This document shows positions 9,277 through 18,066 of a stretch of 40,385 bases of DNA, in pieces. The translations under genes were made by a program, and so were the position numbers. The notes beneath the pieces are model-generated. The model saw only the letters and a list, made by a program, of their open reading frames with translations, was not told the DNA's origin and did no database searches. The stretch is from Acidobacteriota bacterium. Its GTDB lineage: Bacteria; Acidobacteriota; Terriglobia; Acidiferrales; UBA7541. The stretch is taken from assembly GCA_003223215.1 (NCBI GenBank), contig QHYH01000164.1:1-40385 (forward strand), given 5' to 3'. Position 1 is the first letter of the stretch; each line of letters begins with the position of its first letter.

Positions 9277-9299
9277 ACTGTTCCCTGACGAACTTCGGT
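9277..9299 (-). repeat. Right terminal inverted repeat of the IS
   Basis: Read on the minus strand from 9299 this copies the left end closely. The first base of the element is also the last base of the TAA stop codon (9301-9299) of the adjacent minus-strand gene. Confidence 0.7.
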
Positions 9300-12200
9300 T
9301 AAGGCTGCGGCCGCTCCGGTTGTGGTTGTGGCTGCGGTTGCGGCTGCGGTTGTTGTTGAAGCGGCGGCTGCTGCAGCGGCGGTTGCGGTTGAGGTTGCGG
9401 TGGTTGCGGCAATGTCGGTGCCGGAGTCCCGCGAGGTCCGGGAGCGAACCCGCCGGCGGGTTCGCCGCGGCCTGCGTAGATGGTCCGCGTGAGATGATCT
9501 GCCAGCCGCAGTCTGCGGGGAGTAACCACAATAAGCAACTCCGAGTCTTCGCTGGATCTGCTCCTCGAGCCGAATGCATATCCTAGGCCAGGGATCGGCG
9601 CGAAACCGGGCAGGCCCGCGATGGAACGCGTTTCCTCCCTATCCGCCATACCGTTAATCAGAGTCGGCTCGTTTTCTTTCACGCGCACGGTTTGCGACAA
9701 CGTGCGATTCGAAAGGATGGGGATGCCGTTGACGCTCGTGCCGGAAAGCGCGCGAATCTCGAATTCCAGTTGCAGGGTTACCTCGCCGTCGGGATGAAGC
9801 GTGGGCGTAGCTTTGATCTTCAAGCCGAGGTCAATATACTCCGAGGCGGGATAAGGCTGTTGCGCAACTCCAGGCGCCACGCCGGAGGAAAACAGGCTCG
9901 CCGGACTCAGAACCACGGTGACGTCGCCCGCAGCCCCCGAGACATTATTGGTGATCGCCACATCAGGAAATCCTCCCGCCGCGAAGGTGTCTGCGACGAT
10001 GGCGGTAGGGGTGGAACCGGTGGGACCGGCGGGAGGCTCGAAGGCTTGGCTGAACAGCCCTCCCGAAAGGCCCACAAAGACCCGGAACGTATTGGCTCCT
10101 CCGTTTGTCACCGCCATATCCGGGAGGCCATCCTGATTGAAGTCCGCGATGGCGACCCCGGTGGGAGACGCCCCGGTTTGCAGCAGCGGGGCTGGTCCAG
10201 GCGCAAAGCTGGCGTCCCCATTGTTGAGAAAAATGCTGACCGCGTCATCGGTTTGATTCACCACGGCAAGGTCCGGCTTTGCGTCGCGATTCAAATCGCC
10301 GGCGGCGATCGCCACCGGGCCATTGCCCGACGATATGGGCGAACCGGTAGCTTCAGAAAAGGCGCCGTCACCATGCCCCAAAAGAATGGCCACGTTGTTG
10401 GTGGTTTGATTTACGATGGCTAGGTCCTCGTTCCCATCCGAGTTAAAGTCATTCGTCACCATGGCCACCGGGCCTCGCTCGCTTGCGGTAAACGGCGTCA
10501 AAGTAAACTGCTTTTGTGCGGTCAAGGGAGCAGTGCTTGAGTCTGTGACCGCCACCGTAAAGGTGAAACTTGTCCCCGCGGTGGTGGCCACGGGAGCTCC
10601 CGTAATTTCGCCGGTCTTTGCGTTCAGGCTCAGGCCAGCAGGCAATGCCCCGGAGGAAAGGCCCCAGGTAAGCGGGACGGTTCCTCCGCTAACCGTCAGA
10701 ATCTGGTGGTAAGGGGTCCCGACACTTCCGTTGGGAAGGCCGGCCGTGGAAATAGCAAACGCCGAAGGTGTCGTATTGATGGAGATGCTGAGCGCGGTGG
10801 TAACGGAATTCGGAGGGCTGGCGGAATCCGTGGCCTTCACGGTGATCGGCGAAGTTCCCGCGGCTGTGGGTGTGCCTGTGATGGCGCCGGTCGTGGGATT
10901 CAGAGTCAGGCCCGCCGGGAGCGTCCCGGTTGCAAGGGTCCAGGTGATTGCTCCGGTTCCTCCGGTTGATCGCAATGCGGCGGTGTAAGCGGCATTCAAG
11001 ACGCCATCGGGCAGCGTCGTGGTGCTGATCATAAGTTGCCGCGCGAAAACAAAAGGAGAATTCGTCGCAGCCGTAAATTTGCCGGTGCCGTCACCAAGAA
11101 AAATGGAAATGGAGTCATCACCCTCGTTGGCCACAGCGAAATCCTGGTGACCATCGCCGTTGAAGTCTCCCGTGGTAATCGCAGTGGGGTTGAAGCCCAC
11201 GCGAATCGAGACGGGTTTCTGAAACGTGCCATCGCAGTTGCTGAGGAGCACGTTCACGGCGTTCGCAAGCGGATCACTGGCGACCAGGTCATGGCATCCG
11301 CTGCCGGTGAATGTCGCCGAAGCGATTCCGGGAAGGGTCGCCGGCGCTGCGCTGCGCGGAGTTCCCAGCGTAATGGGAGAACCGGTGGCTTGCGAAAACG
11401 TGCCCTGATTGCCGTTCTGATTCAGCAGAACCGTAACCGAGTTGTCGATTTCGTTCACGACCGCCAGGTCAAGGAAACCGTTATTCAAAAAATCTGCGGT
11501 CACCAAAGCGACCGGGCCGGTCCCGGCGGGATAAGAAGTGCTGGGGAAGGGATTGCTCGCTCCGCCTGGATTGGGCGTAAAGGTTGGACTCCCCAGGCTG
11601 CCGGAAAGTAAGGAGAGCGTGACGGGAAAGCGCTCGCCCACGAAAAAAGTGGCTGGCTTGCCGTCTTGGGCGCGCAAAAGAACCTGGCGGCCGCTCTGGA
11701 CCAGCGAGAGCGCCTCGGAGAAGTCGGCGGCGGCCGCCGGAAGAGTCAGGAGGAACGTGGATTTGCCGCCTCCGACCGCAACGAGCGGAGGAATCAGAGA
11801 ACTGATGGACGTCGACCCCCCGGTGGCCGCGCCTCCAAAGATTCCCGCGAGAAGCGTTTCGAGCGCCGACAGATCGTTTGCCTGTCTCAATTGGTTGATC
11901 AGGTTGGTTGGAAGCATGATTAACCTTGCACTGGTGGGTGGCTCGATACCGAGTTTCGTCGCGGCGCTGCGATCGACCTCCAGCAGCTCGATCTCAAGCA
12001 TCAATTCCCCGCGAGCCCTCTCGATCTGCTGAAGGAGCGCGCTGGCGAGAGCCAGCCGCTGCGGAGTAGCGCGCATAGTCATGCTGTGGCTGCGGGGGTC
12101 TAGATTCATGTGCAGGGAGCCCGTGATCTCGCGCAGGATGCGCAAAACCTCCGTAGCCTCCTCGGCGCTGACGGCGGAAGAAAGTGGAAAAGTCTGCTCC

Positions 12201-12940
12201 GCTTCCAAATCATATTCGCGGTGTTTTTCCGGCGTGTCCGCAGCCACAAACATCAGCGTAGCGTTCACCGGGCGCCAGAAGGTTTCCGTCTCCGCGGCGA
12301 GGACGGTAACGGCGTTCGTGAAATCCACATCGTTGAGGTTTAAGCGCACGTTCCTGATAATCAGATCGGGGTCGAAGGAGACGCGCAGGCCGAAAATTCC
12401 GGCCAGTTGCTCGTAAACGGTTCTGGTGTCCCCTCGCAAGTCGAGGTTGCGCTTCCCTGCCTGCGGTCTCAATCGGGGCAAGTCGGGAATTTCCGAGACA
12501 GCTTTTGGCTCGGTTTCATCTGCCATGCTTTTGATTTGCCGCAAGCGCTCCATGACGTCCGGGTTGCTGGGGTCAATCGCCAGCGCAGCGGCAAGATCTT
12601 CGGTTGCTTGCTCTAAGCGGCCGGCTATCGCATCCCGCTCCGCCTCATCCGCGTAAGACCGCACCAGCTTCGAGCGCAGCCCTGCGGCGCGCTCGGCAAA
12701 GGCGATCTCCTTAGGCGCATAGTGTGCGGCTTCCTCATAGGCGGCCAAGGCGTCTTCCAAGTGCCCGGCGGCTTCCGCTTTTTCACCCTGCTCGGCGGCT
12801 TTGCGCGCGCGCTTCGGGTCCGGCCGCACCCGCTCGGCTGGCGCTTGGGCAGCGGGAGGCTGCGATTGAGCGAAGGAGAGTTGTGAAAACAGAACTAGGC
12901 TCGAGAGCGTCAAGGACGAGGCTTGGCGAAGGGTGGCCAT
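9299..12940 (-). CDS. Secretin-like outer-membrane protein with inserted FG-GAP propeller and Ig-like domains
   Basis: The product is about 1213 aa with a signal peptide (LTLSSLVLFSQLSFA). TPR-like helices lie at about 45-140, and an STN/secretin N-type domain at about 163-250. The first part of the secretin core follows at about 256-450 (LMLEIELLEVDRSAATKLGI, FFVGERFPVTLSLLSGS). Then comes a 570-residue insertion. FG-GAP/VCBS-type repeats 1-3 lie at about 472-634 (for example DFNGDGHQDFAVAN), two putative-Ig (He_PIG) domains at about 639-814, and repeats 4-7 at about 824-1018 (DFNSDGNEDLAIVN and similar). The secretin core resumes at about 1033-1146 (IDLGLKIKATPTLHPDGEV ... ELLIVVTPRRLR). 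A Pro/Gln tail ends it. The start at 12940 has no clear Shine-Dalgarno. The family forms gated outer-membrane pores of type II/IV systems; the partner system is not visible here. Confidence 0.8.
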   Translation of the reverse strand: MATLRQASSLTLSSLVLFSQLSFAQSQPPAAQAPAERVRPDPKRARKAAEQGEKAEAAGHLEDALAAYEEAAHYAPKEIAFAERAAGLRSKLVRSYADEAERDAIAGRLEQATEDLAAALAIDPSNPDVMERLRQIKSMADETEPKAVSEIPDLPRLRPQAGKRNLDLRGDTRTVYEQLAGIFGLRVSFDPDLIIRNVRLNLNDVDFTNAVTVLAAETETFWRPVNATLMFVAADTPEKHREYDLEAEQTFPLSSAVSAEEATEVLRILREITGSLHMNLDPRSHSMTMRATPQRLALASALLQQIERARGELMLEIELLEVDRSAATKLGIEPPTSARLIMLPTNLINQLRQANDLSALETLLAGIFGGAATGGSTSISSLIPPLVAVGGGKSTFLLTLPAAAADFSEALSLVQSGRQVLLRAQDGKPATFFVGERFPVTLSLLSGSLGSPTFTPNPGGASNPFPSTSYPAGTGPVALVTADFLNNGFLDLAVVNEIDNSVTVLLNQNGNQGTFSQATGSPITLGTPRSAAPATLPGIASATFTGSGCHDLVASDPLANAVNVLLSNCDGTFQKPVSIRVGFNPTAITTGDFNGDGHQDFAVANEGDDSISIFLGDGTGKFTAATNSPFVFARQLMISTTTLPDGVLNAAYTAALRSTGGTGAITWTLATGTLPAGLTLNPTTGAITGTPTAAGTSPITVKATDSASPPNSVTTALSISINTTPSAFAISTAGLPNGSVGTPYHQILTVSGGTVPLTWGLSSGALPAGLSLNAKTGEITGAPVATTAGTSFTFTVAVTDSSTAPLTAQKQFTLTPFTASERGPVAMVTNDFNSDGNEDLAIVNQTTNNVAILLGHGDGAFSEATGSPISSGNGPVAIAAGDLNRDAKPDLAVVNQTDDAVSIFLNNGDASFAPGPAPLLQTGASPTGVAIADFNQDGLPDMAVTNGGANTFRVFVGLSGGLFSQAFEPPAGPTGSTPTAIVADTFAAGGFPDVAITNNVSGAAGDVTVVLSPASLFSSGVAPGVAQQPYPASEYIDLGLKIKATPTLHPDGEVTLQLEFEIRALSGTSVNGIPILSNRTLSQTVRVKENEPTLINGMADREETRSIAGLPGFAPIPGLGYAFGSRSRSSEDSELLIVVTPRRLRLADHLTRTIYAGRGEPAGGFAPGPRGTPAPTLPQPPQPQPQPPLQQPPLQQQPQPQPQPQPQPERPQP

Positions 12941-12977
12941 GTGCAAGAAACAGAATAACCTATTCCGCCCTGGCGGA

Positions 12978-13000
12978 AACCGGACCGAATTAGTCCGGTT
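12978..13000. promoter_or_regulatory. Candidate operator: perfect 8-bp inverted repeat upstream of the iron operon
   Basis: The arms AACCGGAC (12978-12985) and GTCCGGTT (12993-13000) are perfect and have a 7-nt centre. The half-site GTCCGG recurs at 13011-13016, 18 bp further on. The right arm overlaps the -35 box of the likely promoter of the FTR1 gene. It lies in the divergent spacer between the secretin and iron genes, so it could affect both. Confidence 0.5.
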
Positions 13001-13028
13001 GACCTGAAAGGTCCGGCTAAGGTAAACT
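12999..13028 (+). promoter_or_regulatory. Likely promoter of the iron-uptake operon
   Basis: A -35 box TTGACC (12999-13004) and a -10 box TAAACT (13023-13028) are separated by 18 nt. The -35 is 5/6 and the -10 is 4/6 to consensus. The start would be near 13035, about 40 nt before the GTG of the FTR1 gene. Palindromes overlap both sides of this site. Confidence 0.4.
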
Positions 13029-13037
13029 CGGATTTGT

Positions 13038-13058
13038 AGTTGCAAGTTACTTACAACT
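13038..13058. promoter_or_regulatory. Candidate operator: 21-bp palindrome before the FTR1 start
   Basis: The half-sites AGTTGCAAGT (13038-13047) and ACTTACAACT (13049-13058) are reverse complements at 9 of 10 positions around a single central T. The size and symmetry match what a dimeric winged-helix repressor such as a DtxR-family protein binds. The sequence does not match the DtxR/IdeR consensus known from Actinobacteria. It ends 18 nt before the FTR1 start codon, at the expected transcription start. Confidence 0.45.
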
Positions 13059-13076
13059 GGACAGACTGGATCATCC

Positions 13077-14339
13077 GTGCTTTCCGCATTTCTTGTCGCG
13101 CTTCGCGAAGGGGTCGAAGCGGCCCTGGTCGTCGGCATCATCCTGGTCTATCTCTCCCGCACTGGCCGCACCCACCTGACGCGCTTCGTCTGGTATGGTG
13201 TCGCAGCGGCCGCTGCTCTGAGCCTGGCTGTGGCCGTGGGGCTGGAGCGCTGGCGCATCAGCGAAGACGGCATCGAGGGGCTGATGCTGCTGGTAGCCTC
13301 GGTCTTCGTTGTTACGATGATAGTATGGATGAACCGCGTTGCGCGCCACCTGCGAAAAGAAATTGAGGAAAAAGTAGAGTGCTACGTCGAGCGGCCGGGG
13401 AACGCCGCGGGGTGGGGGATCTTTCTCTTCGTCTTTCTTATGGTTCTGCGCGAAGGCGCAGAACTGGCGCTAATCCTGCGCGCCGTGCAGCTCTCGACAG
13501 CAGGCCTCGAGACCTGGATTGGGACCATCGCCGGGATCGGCGCGGCGGTTGCCGTCGGGCTGTTCTTTTTCAAGGGCACGCTGCGCATTCCGTTGCAGCG
13601 GTTTTTCGCCGCCACGAGCGTCATCCTGGTGCTCGTCGCGTTCCAGCTGGCGCTGACCGGCTTGCACGAATTGAGCGAAGCGCTCTGGCTGCCTTCCAGC
13701 AAGGCGGAGATGGCCATTCTTGGTCCCATCGTGCGCAACGACCTTTTCTTTTTCGTTTTCATTTTTGGCGCGGCGATCCTGCTGATTTTGCGGGAATGGC
13801 AGGCGGCTTCTCACGCCAAGGCCGCAGCGGGGTCCCTGAATGCCGCAGAAAAGCGCCTGCTCAAATCGCAGAACCGCCGCCAGCGCCGCTGGATGATTGC
13901 TGCGGCAACGGCGTCTCTGACGGTCATTCTCGTTTTGACCGCAGATTTCATTTACGCGCGAGCAAATTCCGCCGCGCCGGCGGCCCAGGCGATTGATCCC
14001 GTCGGCAGCATCGTGCGCGTGCCCGTGAGCCAAGCGCAGGACGGCGCCCTGCACCTTTTCACCGTGAACGCAGGGAGCCAATCGCTGCGGTTCATGATCA
14101 TCAAAAAGCCCAATGGCTGGGGCGTGGCCCTGGATGCCTGCCGGATTTGCGGCGCGGAAGGCTACCGCCAGGACGGCCAGAACGTCGTCTGCCGCCACTG
14201 CGCTTCGGCGATTTTCATTCCCTCGATTGGCGATCAGGGAGGCTGCAATCCCATCGGCGTGCCCGCGCGCCTGGATGGAGGAGACATCGTGATCGACATT
14301 TCCGGGCTCGCCGAAAAGTCCAAGGAGATTCCCCGGTAG
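13077..14339 (+). CDS. FTR1-type iron permease fused to DUF2318
   Basis: This is an inner-membrane iron transporter of 420 aa. The N-terminal 290 residues are an FTR1 permease with both iron-binding REGxE motifs: REGVEAAL (residues about 10-17) and REGAELAL (about 125-132). About seven membrane helices are visible, the last just before the domain junction. The C-terminal 110 residues are a DUF2318 domain on the far side of the membrane, with CRIC, CRHC and a further Cys in GGCNPIGVP, a likely metal or redox site. Fused FTR1-DUF2318 proteins are known from the P19/FetM type iron-uptake systems of proteobacteria. No P19 gene is present nearby. The start is GTG with a weak ribosome site. It heads the operon, 39 nt before the first permease gene. 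Confidence 0.85.
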   Translation: MLSAFLVALREGVEAALVVGIILVYLSRTGRTHLTRFVWYGVAAAAALSLAVAVGLERWRISEDGIEGLMLLVASVFVVTMIVWMNRVARHLRKEIEEKVECYVERPGNAAGWGIFLFVFLMVLREGAELALILRAVQLSTAGLETWIGTIAGIGAAVAVGLFFFKGTLRIPLQRFFAATSVILVLVAFQLALTGLHELSEALWLPSSKAEMAILGPIVRNDLFFFVFIFGAAILLILREWQAASHAKAAAGSLNAAEKRLLKSQNRRQRRWMIAAATASLTVILVLTADFIYARANSAAPAAQAIDPVGSIVRVPVSQAQDGALHLFTVNAGSQSLRFMIIKKPNGWGVALDACRICGAEGYRQDGQNVVCRHCASAIFIPSIGDQGGCNPIGVPARLDGGDIVIDISGLAEKSKEIPR

Positions 14340-14378: not shown

Positions 14379-15695
14379 ATGTTCCTGAGACTCGTAGCCG
14401 ATTCCTTCGGGCGGCGTCCGCGGCACAAGCTGCTGACCGGCGCGGCCCTGGCTCTCGGCATGGGCGTAGTTACGGCCGCGCTTGGTGTGGCGCTCGACGT
14501 CGGCGACCGCTTAGCCAAGGAATTCCGGAGCCTGGGCGCCAATCTGGTGGTCACGCCCACGGCCGATTCCCTGCCCCTCGAGATTGGCGGCGTGGACTAT
14601 CGGCCGGTGAATGCGGGAGCCTACCTGCCCGAGGCCGACCTGCCAAAACTCAAGACCATTTTTTGGCACAACAACATCATGGGCTTTGCGCCCATCCTCG
14701 AGGTCCGGGGTGAGGCTCGGCCGTTTGTGCTGAACGATTCGGTTCATCAGCCCGGGAATTGGGTCGAGAACGTTCCTATCGTCGGGACGTGGGCAGACCA
14801 TGCCGTTCCGTTGCCGGAGGGCGGAGAATTTCGCACCGGAGTTGCCAAGACGAACCCGTGGTGGCAAATCGCCGGCCGCTGGTTTTCCGAAGGTGCCAAG
14901 GAATGTGTGGTCGGAGCCGCATTCGCAAAGGAGCATCGCGTCCATATTGCCGACTCGGTTTCGTTGGCTAGTGGCGACGTGACGATCATTCCCGCCCCGC
15001 TCACAGTCACGGGGATACTCGCTTCCGGTGGTCCTGAGGAGGCCTCGATCGTGGTCCCGCTTTCCTACGCGCAATCGCTTGCGCGCAAGCCAGGAGAATA
15101 CCGCAAGTTGTACGTCTCCGCTCTGACCAAGCCAGAAGACGCCTTTGCGCGCAAAGACCCCAAGAGCATGACGCCGGCCGAATTCGACCGCTGGTACTGC
15201 ACGCCCTACATTTCTTCGATTGCTCTCCAAATCAGCGAGCAATTGCCGGGGACGGACGTACGCGTAATCAGGCGTGTTGCGGAAGGCGAAGGCCAGATTC
15301 TCACGCACGTGGTGATGCTGCTTTGGCTGGTCACTCTCGCGGCCATGCTCGCCGCGGCCTTGGCCGTGGGCGCTTGTTCGGCCGCTTCCGTGATCGAGCG
15401 GCAAGTGGAGATTGGCTTGATGAAGGCGCTGGGAGCGGGTTCCGCGACGGTTGCCTTCTTGCTCGCGGCGGAGCAGCTCCTGCTCGCGTTTGTGGGCGGA
15501 GGGATTGGTTACGCCCTGGGAATCGTTTTGGCGCGCCTGGTGGGTGAAAGGATCTTCGGCGCTGCGCCGGAGCCGACCCTGCTGGTTTTTCTGGTTGTGA
15601 TTGGGATCGCGGCCACGGTGACGCTTCTCGGCAGCGCCATTCCCCTTCGACGCGCCTCGCGCATCGAGCCCGCGCCCATCTTGCGAGGCGAGTGA
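14379..15695 (+). CDS. FtsX/MacB-type ABC transporter permease, iron-uptake operon
   Basis: The 438-aa inner-membrane permease has one N-terminal helix (KLLTGAALALGMGVVTAALG), a large periplasmic domain at about residues 45-300, and three C-terminal helices ending in the FtsX-type motif IPLRRASRIEPAPILRGE. It includes VIERQVEIGLMKALGAG, the conserved cytoplasmic loop that contacts the ATPase. Equivalent paired FtsX-like permeases accompany FTR1-DUF2318 proteins in Campylobacter jejuni (the p19 locus), which is the basis for assigning it to iron uptake. Its stop overlaps the start of the next gene by 4 bp (ATGA), indicating translational coupling. Confidence 0.8.
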   Translation: MFLRLVADSFGRRPRHKLLTGAALALGMGVVTAALGVALDVGDRLAKEFRSLGANLVVTPTADSLPLEIGGVDYRPVNAGAYLPEADLPKLKTIFWHNNIMGFAPILEVRGEARPFVLNDSVHQPGNWVENVPIVGTWADHAVPLPEGGEFRTGVAKTNPWWQIAGRWFSEGAKECVVGAAFAKEHRVHIADSVSLASGDVTIIPAPLTVTGILASGGPEEASIVVPLSYAQSLARKPGEYRKLYVSALTKPEDAFARKDPKSMTPAEFDRWYCTPYISSIALQISEQLPGTDVRVIRRVAEGEGQILTHVVMLLWLVTLAAMLAAALAVGACSAASVIERQVEIGLMKALGAGSATVAFLLAAEQLLLAFVGGGIGYALGIVLARLVGERIFGAAPEPTLLVFLVVIGIAATVTLLGSAIPLRRASRIEPAPILRGE

Positions 15696-16858
15696 TGACC
15701 GAACTTCGCGATACCAATCGAGCGATGTTCTGGCGTATCCTTCGGCGTCTGCTCGGAGCCAACCGCGGCCGGATGTTCGTCATGCTGCTCGCGCTCGGAG
15801 CCGGCGCTGCCGTCACCGCCGCTCTTCTTAATTTGCAAGTCGATGCCAAGCGCCGCCTTACCACCGAATTCCGCGCCTTCGGCCCAAACGTAGTGATCGT
15901 TCCGAAAGGTTCTTTGTCGTCAAGCTCCGCGACGCTGTCGCAGTCGATCATCCATTCCGTGCCCGCGAATGTTCCTAGCGGCCGCGTGACCGCAATGTCC
16001 GCTCTCTACATGGTCGCCAGCGTTTCGGTTCCTCCGCCCGGAAAATCTGCTTCTGCCGTTGTCGCGGGAATCTATCCGCTAGCGTTTATAACCGCTTATC
16101 CTTCGGCCCGTCCGAACCAAGCGGCCCCCTCCTCAGAAAACGTATGCGTTGCCGGAGTGCGGTTCGCAAAAGAAGTTGGCGTTGAGTCGCATGCAGAACT
16201 CGTTGTGGCCAGCGGCGACCGCCGCGAGTCGTGCCGTGTTGCCAGCTTTCGCCAGACCGGCGGACCGGAAGACAACCGTCTCGAGATCGACTTGCGAGCG
16301 GCACAGCGCTTGGCCGATCTGCCGGATCGTGTCAGCATGATCGAGTTAACCGTGCCAGGCACGCCCGCCGAAATCCAAAATTACATCGCCGATCTTCAGA
16401 GGCGAATCCCTGATGCAGAAGTGCGCCCCGTCCGGCAATTTACGGAAGGCGAAGCCAAAATTTACAACCGCATCAGCGGCCTGCTGACCGCCACCGTGGG
16501 CATCGTGCTGCTGTTGACCGCGCTGTGCGTCATGGCCGCTATGACCAACGTAGCCATTGAGCGCAGGATGGACGTTGGCTTGATGAAAGCCATTGGCGGG
16601 GCGACGCGGCGCGTCGTGCGGCTGTTCCTTGCGGAAGCGGCGCTGCTCGGCCTTGCCGGCGGGGTGATCGGCGCAGCGCTCGGGATTCTGCTCTCTATCG
16701 GTCTGGGCAAAGCCGTTTTTGGCGTGGCGGCGCGGCCGCGCCTGATTGTGTATCCTGTAGCTGTGGGTTTGACGGTGCTGGTGGCGATTCTGAGCGCCTT
16801 CCCGTTGCGGCGGCTGGCAAGCATCCGCCCGGCATCGGTGTTCCGAGGTGAAGCGTGA
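15692..16858 (+). CDS. Second FtsX/MacB-type ABC transporter permease, iron-uptake operon
   Basis: This 388-aa permease has the same architecture as its neighbour: an N-terminal helix (MFVMLLALGAGAAVTAALLN), a periplasmic domain, and three C-terminal helices. It carries ERRMDVGLMKAIGGATRRVV and the end motif FPLRRLASIRPASVFRGE. The two permeases are clearly paralogues of different size and probably form a heterodimer served by the downstream ATPase. The gene overlaps the preceding gene by ATGA and the following one by GTGA, so all three are translationally coupled in one operon. Confidence 0.8.
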   Translation: MMTELRDTNRAMFWRILRRLLGANRGRMFVMLLALGAGAAVTAALLNLQVDAKRRLTTEFRAFGPNVVIVPKGSLSSSSATLSQSIIHSVPANVPSGRVTAMSALYMVASVSVPPPGKSASAVVAGIYPLAFITAYPSARPNQAAPSSENVCVAGVRFAKEVGVESHAELVVASGDRRESCRVASFRQTGGPEDNRLEIDLRAAQRLADLPDRVSMIELTVPGTPAEIQNYIADLQRRIPDAEVRPVRQFTEGEAKIYNRISGLLTATVGIVLLLTALCVMAAMTNVAIERRMDVGLMKAIGGATRRVVRLFLAEAALLGLAGGVIGAALGILLSIGLGKAVFGVAARPRLIVYPVAVGLTVLVAILSAFPLRRLASIRPASVFRGEA

Positions 16859-18066
16859 GTGTGGTTGCTCCGGTTCAATTGCAGCCGCGGGCTGCGGCGC
16901 AGCAGGTGGTCATCGACAATCTGATCAAGCAGTACGGCTCCTTGCGCGCGCTCAACGGCGTCAGCTTCGCAGTGAACGGCGGGGAATGGGTTGCTCTGAT
17001 GGGGCCTTCCGGGTCGGGGAAAACCACGCTCATCAACATTCTCGGCGGGTTGGACACGCTGAGCAGCGGGCGCGTGATCGTCGACGGCGTGGATCTGGCG
17101 AAGCTCAGCGAAAACGACTTGGTTCGCTACCGTGCGGAAAAAGTGGGTTTCGTTTTCCAGCAATTTCATCTCGTGCCGTATCTCACGGCGCTGGAAAACG
17201 TGATGCTGGCTCAGTATTTTCACAGCGTCACGGACGAAAAAGAGGCCGAAGAGGCGCTGAAGCGCGTCGGTCTCGGCGACCGCCTGACGCATTTGCCAGC
17301 GCAGCTTTCCGGCGGCGAACAGCAGCGCGTGGCCATTGCGCGAGCATTAATCAACCAGCCGAAGCTCATTCTTGCCGACGAACCTACCGGCAATCTCGAC
17401 GAAGCCAACGAACGAATCGTCATCGAAATCTTCCGCAAGCTGCACCATGCGGGTCACACCATCTTGATGGTCACGCACGACCCGGACATCGCGCGGCAAG
17501 CCGACCGCCGCATTGAACTCGCTCATGGCCACTTGCATTTTGACTCCGCGGTGCATGGCCCGAGCCAACCGCTTAACTGCCCCTTGGTGGACACGCCCGA
17601 CTGCTGCCAGTCCGTCTGGACCGACGACGAAATTCGCTTCGACCACTTGCTGGAACAAATTTGGGTTTGCGGCGAGGAGGGGAAACCCGCGCAGCTGGAA
17701 CGACTGCGCGCCACGGGGGCCTCGGGGAAACCTTCGACGGTGGCCGAAGAGTCTGCCTCCCGCGTTCTTTCGCGCATGGCGGATCTCGATTTGGTTGCGT
17801 TGCACGATGGGGAGGCGCAGCTTACTCCCGCGGGGAGCCAGCGGGCGCGCGACGTAGTGCGCCGCCATCGCTTGGCGGAACGTTTGTTCAAAGACACTTT
17901 TGCCGTCGACGAAACCGAAGCGCGCACTCAGGCATGCCGGTTCGAACACATCATCAGCCCCGAGCTTGACGCGCGCATTTGCACGTTTCTCGGGCATCCC
18001 AAGACCTGTCCGCACGGCAACCCCATTCCACCAGGCGATTGCTGCGACGGTAAGCGCAAGTCTTGA
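16855..18066 (+). CDS. ABC ATPase fused to a DtxR/IdeR-like metal-responsive repressor module
   Basis: The 403-aa product has two parts. Residues about 18-230 are a MacB/LolD-type ATPase: Walker [10 protein letters not shown] (50-58), Q-loop [11 protein letters not shown], signature [15 protein letters not shown] (about 152), Walker [13 protein letters not shown] (about 171) and H-loop VTHD. Residues about 258-403 resemble a DtxR-family regulator: a winged-helix part ([20 protein letters not shown]), then RRHRLAERL and ACRFEH, ending in CPHGNPIP and a CC pair. H338, E342, C361, E364 and H365 match DtxR H79, E83, C102, E105 and H106 with identical spacing. The residue at the H98 position is Arg, and a His (264) sits where DtxR has Met10. 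Whether the module binds DNA or only senses metal is not decidable here. Confidence 0.82.

Follow-up and report, generated by a model that had tools for sequence, protein, structure and literature searches.

A DtxR-like domain with an eroded helix-turn-helix on the ABC ATPase of an acidobacterial FTR1 iron operon

What does a metal-sensing domain of the DtxR family do at the end of a transporter ATPase? The question is raised by a 40,385-nucleotide stretch of an Acidobacteriota genome (GenBank assembly GCA_003223215.1, contig QHYH01000164.1, positions 1 to 40,385; hereafter the window), in which the last gene of an operon for an FTR1-type iron permease encodes an ATP-binding cassette (ABC) ATPase joined to a DtxR-like C-terminal part. 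An earlier note on this DNA had pointed out the fusion and set two ideas side by side, namely, that a transporter carrying its own sensor could be regulated directly, or that the product could be repressor and ATPase in one protein. Because the metal site is kept and the helix-turn-helix (HTH) has decayed, the first of these ideas is now the better supported. Judging from sequence comparison, we think it somewhat probable that the DtxR fold has been re-used as an iron-responsive regulatory domain on the transporter ATPase, not as a repressor, and the overall pattern suggests that an iron-sensing switch has been transferred from DNA to the transporter. ABC ATPases with a C-terminal regulatory domain are known already, as is the DtxR fold; what adds interest beyond the earlier note is that the sensor has been retained and the DNA-binding part has not.

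The fusion and its spread

The fusion open reading frame (ORF) starts at a GTG at position 16855, which shares bases with the stop of the preceding permease gene, and is open through to the stop at 18066. In its product, Pfam finds ABC_tran at residues 33–178 (E = 3.6e-36) and Fe_dep_repr_C (PF02742) at residues 324–392 (E = 7.6e-28; 96.8 bits, with a cut-off of 27), which excludes the absence of any DtxR hit after residue 250 that the earlier note had allowed for. The ATPase motifs, claimed earlier to be complete, could all be located, with Walker A at residues 50–57, Q102, LSGGEQQR at 151–158, D175/E176, and H208; their residues are invariant in a 19-row alignment, except for P51 (at least 90%) and T57 (not listed). 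The nearest ATPases by sequence are LolD and MacB, and the closest named relatives of the protein belong to Acidobacteriota (Terriglobia, Acidiferrales). The five metal ligands named in the earlier note (H338, E342, C361, E364, and H365) are in place and align with HRLAER and ACxxEH of solved DtxR/IdeR chains; a chance likeness is ruled out by the PF02742 match together with the DtxR fold of the modeled C-terminal part (see below). The protein does not end in CPHGNPIP, as had been stated, but runs on beyond these residues.

We dissected 89 loci with an ATPase and a DtxR part in one ORF, comprising 85 distinct fusions, four of which occur twice. Because these 85 distinct proteins with both domains are spread across many genomes and share a common operon position (FTR1 lies upstream in 42 of the 43 fusion loci that have at least 3.3 kb of upstream sequence, or in 41 of 42 when a twice-seen locus is left out), the fusion is confirmed as real, and an assembly error or frameshift joining two separate genes is ruled out as its origin. 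A permease of the operon is present in 88 of the 89 loci. When 84,980 species genomes were scanned, 9 of the best 80 loci from a longer list matched near full length, all in Acidobacteriota, and the remaining 71 matched the ATPase part only (query residues up to 258). When 399 genomes of the class were searched with a C-terminal profile of 10 rows, about 128 places scored E ≤ 4e-29, most of them in frames of 350–600 codons and a few in stand-alone proteins; at E ≤ 1e-20, and with fusions and stand-alones pooled, 68 of 396 genomes in the phylum gave a match. Within the genomes searched, ATPase-DtxR fusions are seen only in Acidobacteriota, where they are widespread. The earlier note knew of no described fusion to this type of ATPase, and full-text searches aimed at a link of DtxR to an ABC or Feo protein, judged by the opening lines of the abstracts listed and with subscription journals and preprints outside their coverage, turned up none either.

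Metal site and DNA-binding half

For residue-level comparison, 55 of the 85 distinct fusion C-termini, hand-picked for spread, were aligned jointly (127 sequences) with stand-alone proteins that have the same DtxR part and no ATPase (26 of 27; L185 was removed by a motif filter and the 78-residue fragment L114 omitted), with 16 stand-alones from Nitrospirota, and with ordinary DtxRs of the class (30 loci of 48 matches). Seven metal-site positions were compared, which we take to be those of DtxR M10, MntR E11, and DtxR H79, E83, C102, E105, and H106; they are occupied in the fusion protein of the window by H264, E267, H338, E342, C361, E364, and H365, and the ancillary ligand H98 of DtxR is replaced by R357. 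The signature EEHECEH is found in all 26 stand-alones, in 14 of the 16 Nitrospirota proteins, and in 27 fusions, with HEHECEH in 9 others; C-E-H at the last three positions (102, 105, and 106) is common to 51 of the 55 fusions. Ordinary DtxRs read DKHEEEH (24 of 30) or NKHEEEH (6 of 30). Position 102 is a Cys in the fusion, as in DtxR/IdeR, and a Glu in the ordinary DtxR of the same genome, as in MntR; the choice between Cys and Glu at this position may set iron versus manganese preference.

Behind this site, the six residues of a Cys/His tail (Table 1) are invariant in the 55 fusions and the 26 stand-alones; in the Nitrospirota stand-alones, H387 is found in 12 of 16 and the other five in all 16, and only C385 and H387 are common to the 30 ordinary DtxRs. 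Four fusions of one family (L142, L144, L145, and L146) have a replaced 102 ligand, three of them a replaced 106 ligand as well, and keep the tail. Such a distribution brings in another reading, in which the DtxR part and the tail would be not a switch but an iron acceptor, a metallochaperone, or an iron-sulfur (Fe-S) or other metal-bound scaffold that receives iron entering through FTR1 or keeps the two ATPase subunits of the dimer joined. The tail, which is unchanged in members with substituted 102/106 ligands, and the conserved dimer/metal region (mean column identity 0.67 in the fusions) both argue for it, but the full DtxR site, including the helix-1 E/H at 264 and E at 267, is kept in most members, which is beyond the needs of a scaffold, and we regard this reading as doubtful.

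As to the DtxR-type winged helix and metal-binding region proposed in the earlier note, the metal-binding domain stands, and the winged helix is reduced to a remnant. The DtxR DNA-binding domain of Pfam (PF01325) has no match in the fusion protein of the window up to E = 1; at E ≤ 0.01, it is found in 2 of the 55 fusions and 4 of the 26 stand-alones versus 30 of the 30 ordinary DtxRs (best E values of 8.4e-4, 1.9e-3, and 9.5e-14, respectively). PF02742 is present in every protein of the same three sets (55, 26, and 30). General divergence was rejected as the cause of the absent PF01325, since the best E value of PF02742 is 3.9e-30 in the fusions versus 1.6e-25 in the ordinary DtxRs. The HTH span in the joint alignment measures 34 residues in all 30 ordinary DtxRs, 28–33 residues in 49 of the 55 fusions, and 36–40 in the other six; the protein of the window has an insertion within it. 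The span is 31 residues in 16 of 16 Nitrospirota stand-alones and 11–35 residues in the other 26, with the HTH almost entirely gone in L196. Mean column identity in the HTH is 0.36 in the fusions, as against the 0.67 given above for their dimer/metal region; the corresponding pairs are 0.34 and 0.64 for the stand-alones, 0.47 and 0.69 for the Nitrospirota, and 0.71 and 0.72 for the ordinary DtxRs. The mean net charge of HTH plus wing is −1.4 in the fusions, −2.0 in the stand-alones, −3.9 in the Nitrospirota, and +2.3 in the ordinary DtxRs, with overlapping ranges (−8 to 4 for the fusions, −1 to 6 for the ordinary DtxRs). In fusions L006–L010 and L016 and in many of L083–L106, the wing region contains a His-rich insertion (PHPPEAHDHKPFVNPCHDALKP-like), possibly an extra metal site.

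The structure predicted by AlphaFold2 for the full protein (mean pLDDT 81.9, pTM 0.58) has helix 1 (residues 255–274), no HTH helix 2, and a ten-residue helix at 301–310, together with two wing strands and the dimerization helices. Modeled alone (pLDDT 75.1), the C-terminal part takes the DtxR fold, superimposing on DtxR (1p92) with Z = 14.6 and an rmsd of 2.4 Å over 125 residues, and IdeR/DtxR structures hold the top ranks in Foldseek. In these models, the fold is that of DtxR, and the element that has decayed is the part that reads DNA.

The operon and its upstream palindrome

The operon runs FTR1-FtrD/FtsX/FtsX/ATPase, with the fusion gene last (Table 1), and the earlier description of an FTR1-DUF2318 gene followed by two FtsX permeases agrees with the Pfam assignments. 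Its comparison with the P19-type iron systems holds for the type of operon but not for the P19 protein itself, as PF10634 was found neither in the operon nor elsewhere in the 8.8 Mb, 97.65%-complete source genome in a search in which, of 14 control genomes, only that of Haloferax volcanii matched, leaving its sensitivity for bacterial P19 undemonstrated.

Table 1. Positions of the iron operon, its palindrome, and the parts of the fusion gene in the window
Feature	Position	Strand	Details	Source
19-bp palindrome	13039..13057	.	core TTGnAAnTnAnTTnCAA found again ahead of FTR1 in related operons	
FTR1 iron permease fused to FtrD-like domain	13077..14339	+	PF10080	Pfam
FtsX/MacB-type permease 1	14379..15695	+		Pfam
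FtsX-type permease 2	15692..16858	+		Pfam
ABC ATPase-DtxR-like fusion gene	16855..18066	+	403 aa	ORF, Pfam, 85 distinct fusions in 89 loci
ATPase domain	16909..17559	+	residues 19-235; LolD/MacB-type; catalytic motifs complete	
Linker	17560..17637	+	residues 236-261; pLDDT <50 at 234-255	
DtxR winged-HTH remnant	17638..17823	+	residues 262-323; helix 1 bears putative ligands H264 and E267; no predicted HTH helix 2; recognition region not conserved	
DtxR metal-binding/dimerization domain	17824..17952	+	residues 324-366; H338, E342, C361, E364, H365	
Cys/His tail	17959..18045	+	residues 369-397; C376, H381, C385, H387, C396, C397	

The palindrome upstream of FTR1 is the one match in the window at up to 3 mismatches, with 0.01 expected in shuffled sequences. 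Its core, scored as present when at least 10 of 12 fixed positions agree with a motif derived from the same sequence set that was used for counting, is found upstream of 37 of 47 FTR1 operons (36 of 46 once a duplicate is set aside, L005 and L127 having identical upstream regions) versus 1.2% of shuffled regions. Among these 37 are all five operons whose ATPase has no DtxR domain, which rules out an operator specific to the fusion. Exact copies number two in the genome of the window and zero to two in each of five other genomes searched; in one (G208), the second is flanked by a FUR-family gene and the gene for a TonB-dependent receptor, and in another (G054), the second precedes the gene for an OprB-type porin. 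The palindrome resembles a 7-1-7 Fur box, and the genome of the window has one Fur match and one ordinary DtxR with an intact HTH. Because of its presence in the five bare-ATPase operons and once beside fur and a TonB receptor, the palindrome fits another regulator, and Fur accounts for it better than the fusion does; it could also be bound by the ordinary DtxR.

These data bear on the idea of repressor and ATPase in one protein, according to which the iron-loaded DtxR part would repress the operon through the palindrome and the N-terminal part would serve as the transporter ATPase. The DtxR fold kept overall and the palindrome close upstream of FTR1 in most operons are what such a protein would have, but its PF01325 element is missing in nearly all fusions and present in every ordinary DtxR, its HTH and wing carry on average a negative charge, and the same palindrome stands before operons that have no DtxR domain at all. 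The idea is weakened by these observations, and we consider it improbable.

The second exact copy in the genome of the window (L202; G000:C109:4948-4964) lies just upstream of a 306-residue ORF without a Pfam match and a cytochrome c gene, and it is possibly a second member of the regulon. A different inverted repeat, ACCGGAC-N7-GTCCGGT, is found at window positions 12979–12999; in L121 and L125, similar sequences (CGGACCAGACTGGTCCG and CGGACTAGAATAGTCCG) precede FTR1 at a distance of around −85. The intergenic region of the iron operon is shared with a divergent gene (9299–13141, minus strand) for a large protein with an odd mixture of domains: TPR, secretin, putative Ig (He_PIG), and FG-GAP repeats.

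Relatives, precedents, and a proposed role

In the stand-alone relatives, a FeoA domain follows the DtxR part (26 of 26 by Pfam), and in 25 of 27 acidobacterial loci, the gene adjoins feoB. Matches at E = 1e-25 or better were found in 91 of 198 Nitrospirota genomes, all listed frames having at most 297 codons. The Nitrospirota proteins L248–L262 and L233 are DtxR-FeoA-like, with the metal signature and Cys/His tail of the fusions and a short HTH. At 5 of the 16 Nitrospirota loci examined, FeoB is no more than 1.5 kb away; in the other 11, with longer flanks of up to three ORFs per side, there was no FeoB match, and other genes adjoin. It is thus ruled out that all stand-alones are partners of FeoB.

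A domain tree of 107 rows (the 55 fusions, the 26 stand-alones, the 16 Nitrospirota proteins, and 10 of the 30 ordinary DtxRs) separates the ordinary DtxRs of the class from the fusions and stand-alones with full support, and a single fusion clade is not rejected (p-AU 0.864). In an ATPase tree (45 of the 55 fusions, 5 bare acidobacterial ATPases, and 12 of 66 other bare-ATPase loci), the fusion label requires 4 changes, at least 3 of them forced by starred branches; this is compatible with one gain and repeated loss, the root branch of the tree being weak (support 6). The bare acidobacterial ATPases (L011–L015) nest inside the fused ones, a pattern that fits an accessory domain the ATPase can do without. 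Because of this nesting, and because the only matches in their five genomes are weaker (E = 3.7e-15 to 2.0e-21) and all to ordinary DtxRs, these ATPases seem to have lost the domain. The broader scenario would be that a branch of the DtxR superfamily abandoned DNA through one ancestral change, in which a functional HTH was lost and the Cys/His tail and the E-E-H-E-C-E-H site were acquired, and that the resulting iron sensor, acting on proteins, became joined to two importers of unrelated kinds, to FeoB (as DtxR-FeoA) and to the FTR1-linked ATPase (by gene fusion), gating uptake post-translationally; we consider it as likely as not.

Several known systems invite comparison. The FTR1/P19 locus of Campylobacter (1649–1656, FetMP-like) has FTR1, a membrane protein, two permeases, and one ATPase in the same order, according to PMC6083913, which also describes the substrate of the ABC part of such systems as unknown, even in Campylobacter. 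Here, in contrast, the membrane protein is FtrD-like and encoded in one gene with FTR1, P19 was not found in the genome, and the ATPase has a DtxR domain; in Campylobacter loci, the match stops at query residue 227–239, ahead of any such domain. With DtxR, IdeR, and MntR, the fusion shares the fold, PF02742, and the metal ligands, but it differs from them in its decayed DNA-binding domain, in the fused ATPase and extra Cys/His tail, and in having no FeoA/SH3 domain behind the DtxR part. The stand-alone sisters, with their C-terminal FeoA and adjoining feoB, recall FeoA and FeoC, the accessory proteins of FeoB; the sisters differ in being DtxR-derived. FeoC is a small winged-helix protein with Fe-S cysteines. 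It has an Fe-S cluster and a role in FeoB turnover. FeoA proteins with an additional domain are mentioned in PMC8749426, an account of Feo evolution with no occurrence of "DtxR" in its main text; these might include the DtxR-FeoA sisters.

A precedent for a DtxR-like domain at the C terminus of a metal ABC transporter subunit is YtgCR of Chlamydia, a permease-DtxR fusion that is cleaved to give a repressor with working DNA binding (PMC7755916). A similar release of the DtxR part from the ATPase as a free regulator would agree with this precedent and with the longer, low-confidence linker in the protein of the window, but the partner here is an ATPase, the HTH is eroded, and the junction, measured between a set ATPase position and DtxR helix 1, is exactly 23 residues in 48 of the 55 fusions, which implies a constrained geometry; we hold cleavage to be highly improbable. 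For regulation in place, MetN and ModC are the model: like the fusion, they have an extra C-terminal domain after the ATPase (predicted to bind a ligand in our case), and this domain binds cytoplasmic substrate and stops ATP hydrolysis (PMC10710835). The fusion differs from them in its domain fold, its putative Fe(II) ligand, and its FtsX/MacB-type ABC partners, which are not those of a classical importer; moreover, transinhibition, a property of MetN and ModC, is putative in the fusion.

On the proposal that the DtxR part, which makes up the last third of the protein, is a regulatory domain of the ATPase, cytoplasmic Fe(II) would bind the DtxR-type site and alter the dimer of C-terminal domains that is expected beneath the ATPase dimer, and the changed dimer would tune ATP hydrolysis, most simply as feedback inhibition in the iron-replete cell. 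A separate regulator, probably Fur, would control transcription of the operon through the conserved palindrome. The sign of the effect, inhibition or licensing of the ATPase by iron, can be argued by analogy; we infer inhibition because of the MetN/ModC precedent and the need to avoid an excess of iron.

A number of observations weigh against this proposal. Since the DtxR fold as a whole persists in the model, wing strands included, some DNA affinity of the fusion is conceivable. Because the tail is kept where the 102/106 ligands are substituted, the tail, rather than the classical site, may be the essential one. Upstream of one fusion, L149, both FTR1 and a permease are missing, and 10 of the 47 operons are without a good palindrome. 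Finally, the domain is not always linked to a transporter, since only 5 of the 16 signature-bearing Nitrospirota stand-alones examined are near FeoB.

To our knowledge, most of the feedback described for iron import acts on transcription (Fur and DtxR), an exception being the turnover of FeoB involving FeoC. If the proposal is right, an iron sensor built into the transporter would provide fast control over the uptake of a toxic nutrient, and its place on the ATPase would offer a direct handle on the ABC part of FTR1/P19 systems. For annotation, the findings are a warning that a DtxR-family match in Acidobacteriota or Nitrospirota may belong to a protein that does not bind DNA; the family would illustrate clearly how a transcription factor can become an allosteric domain.

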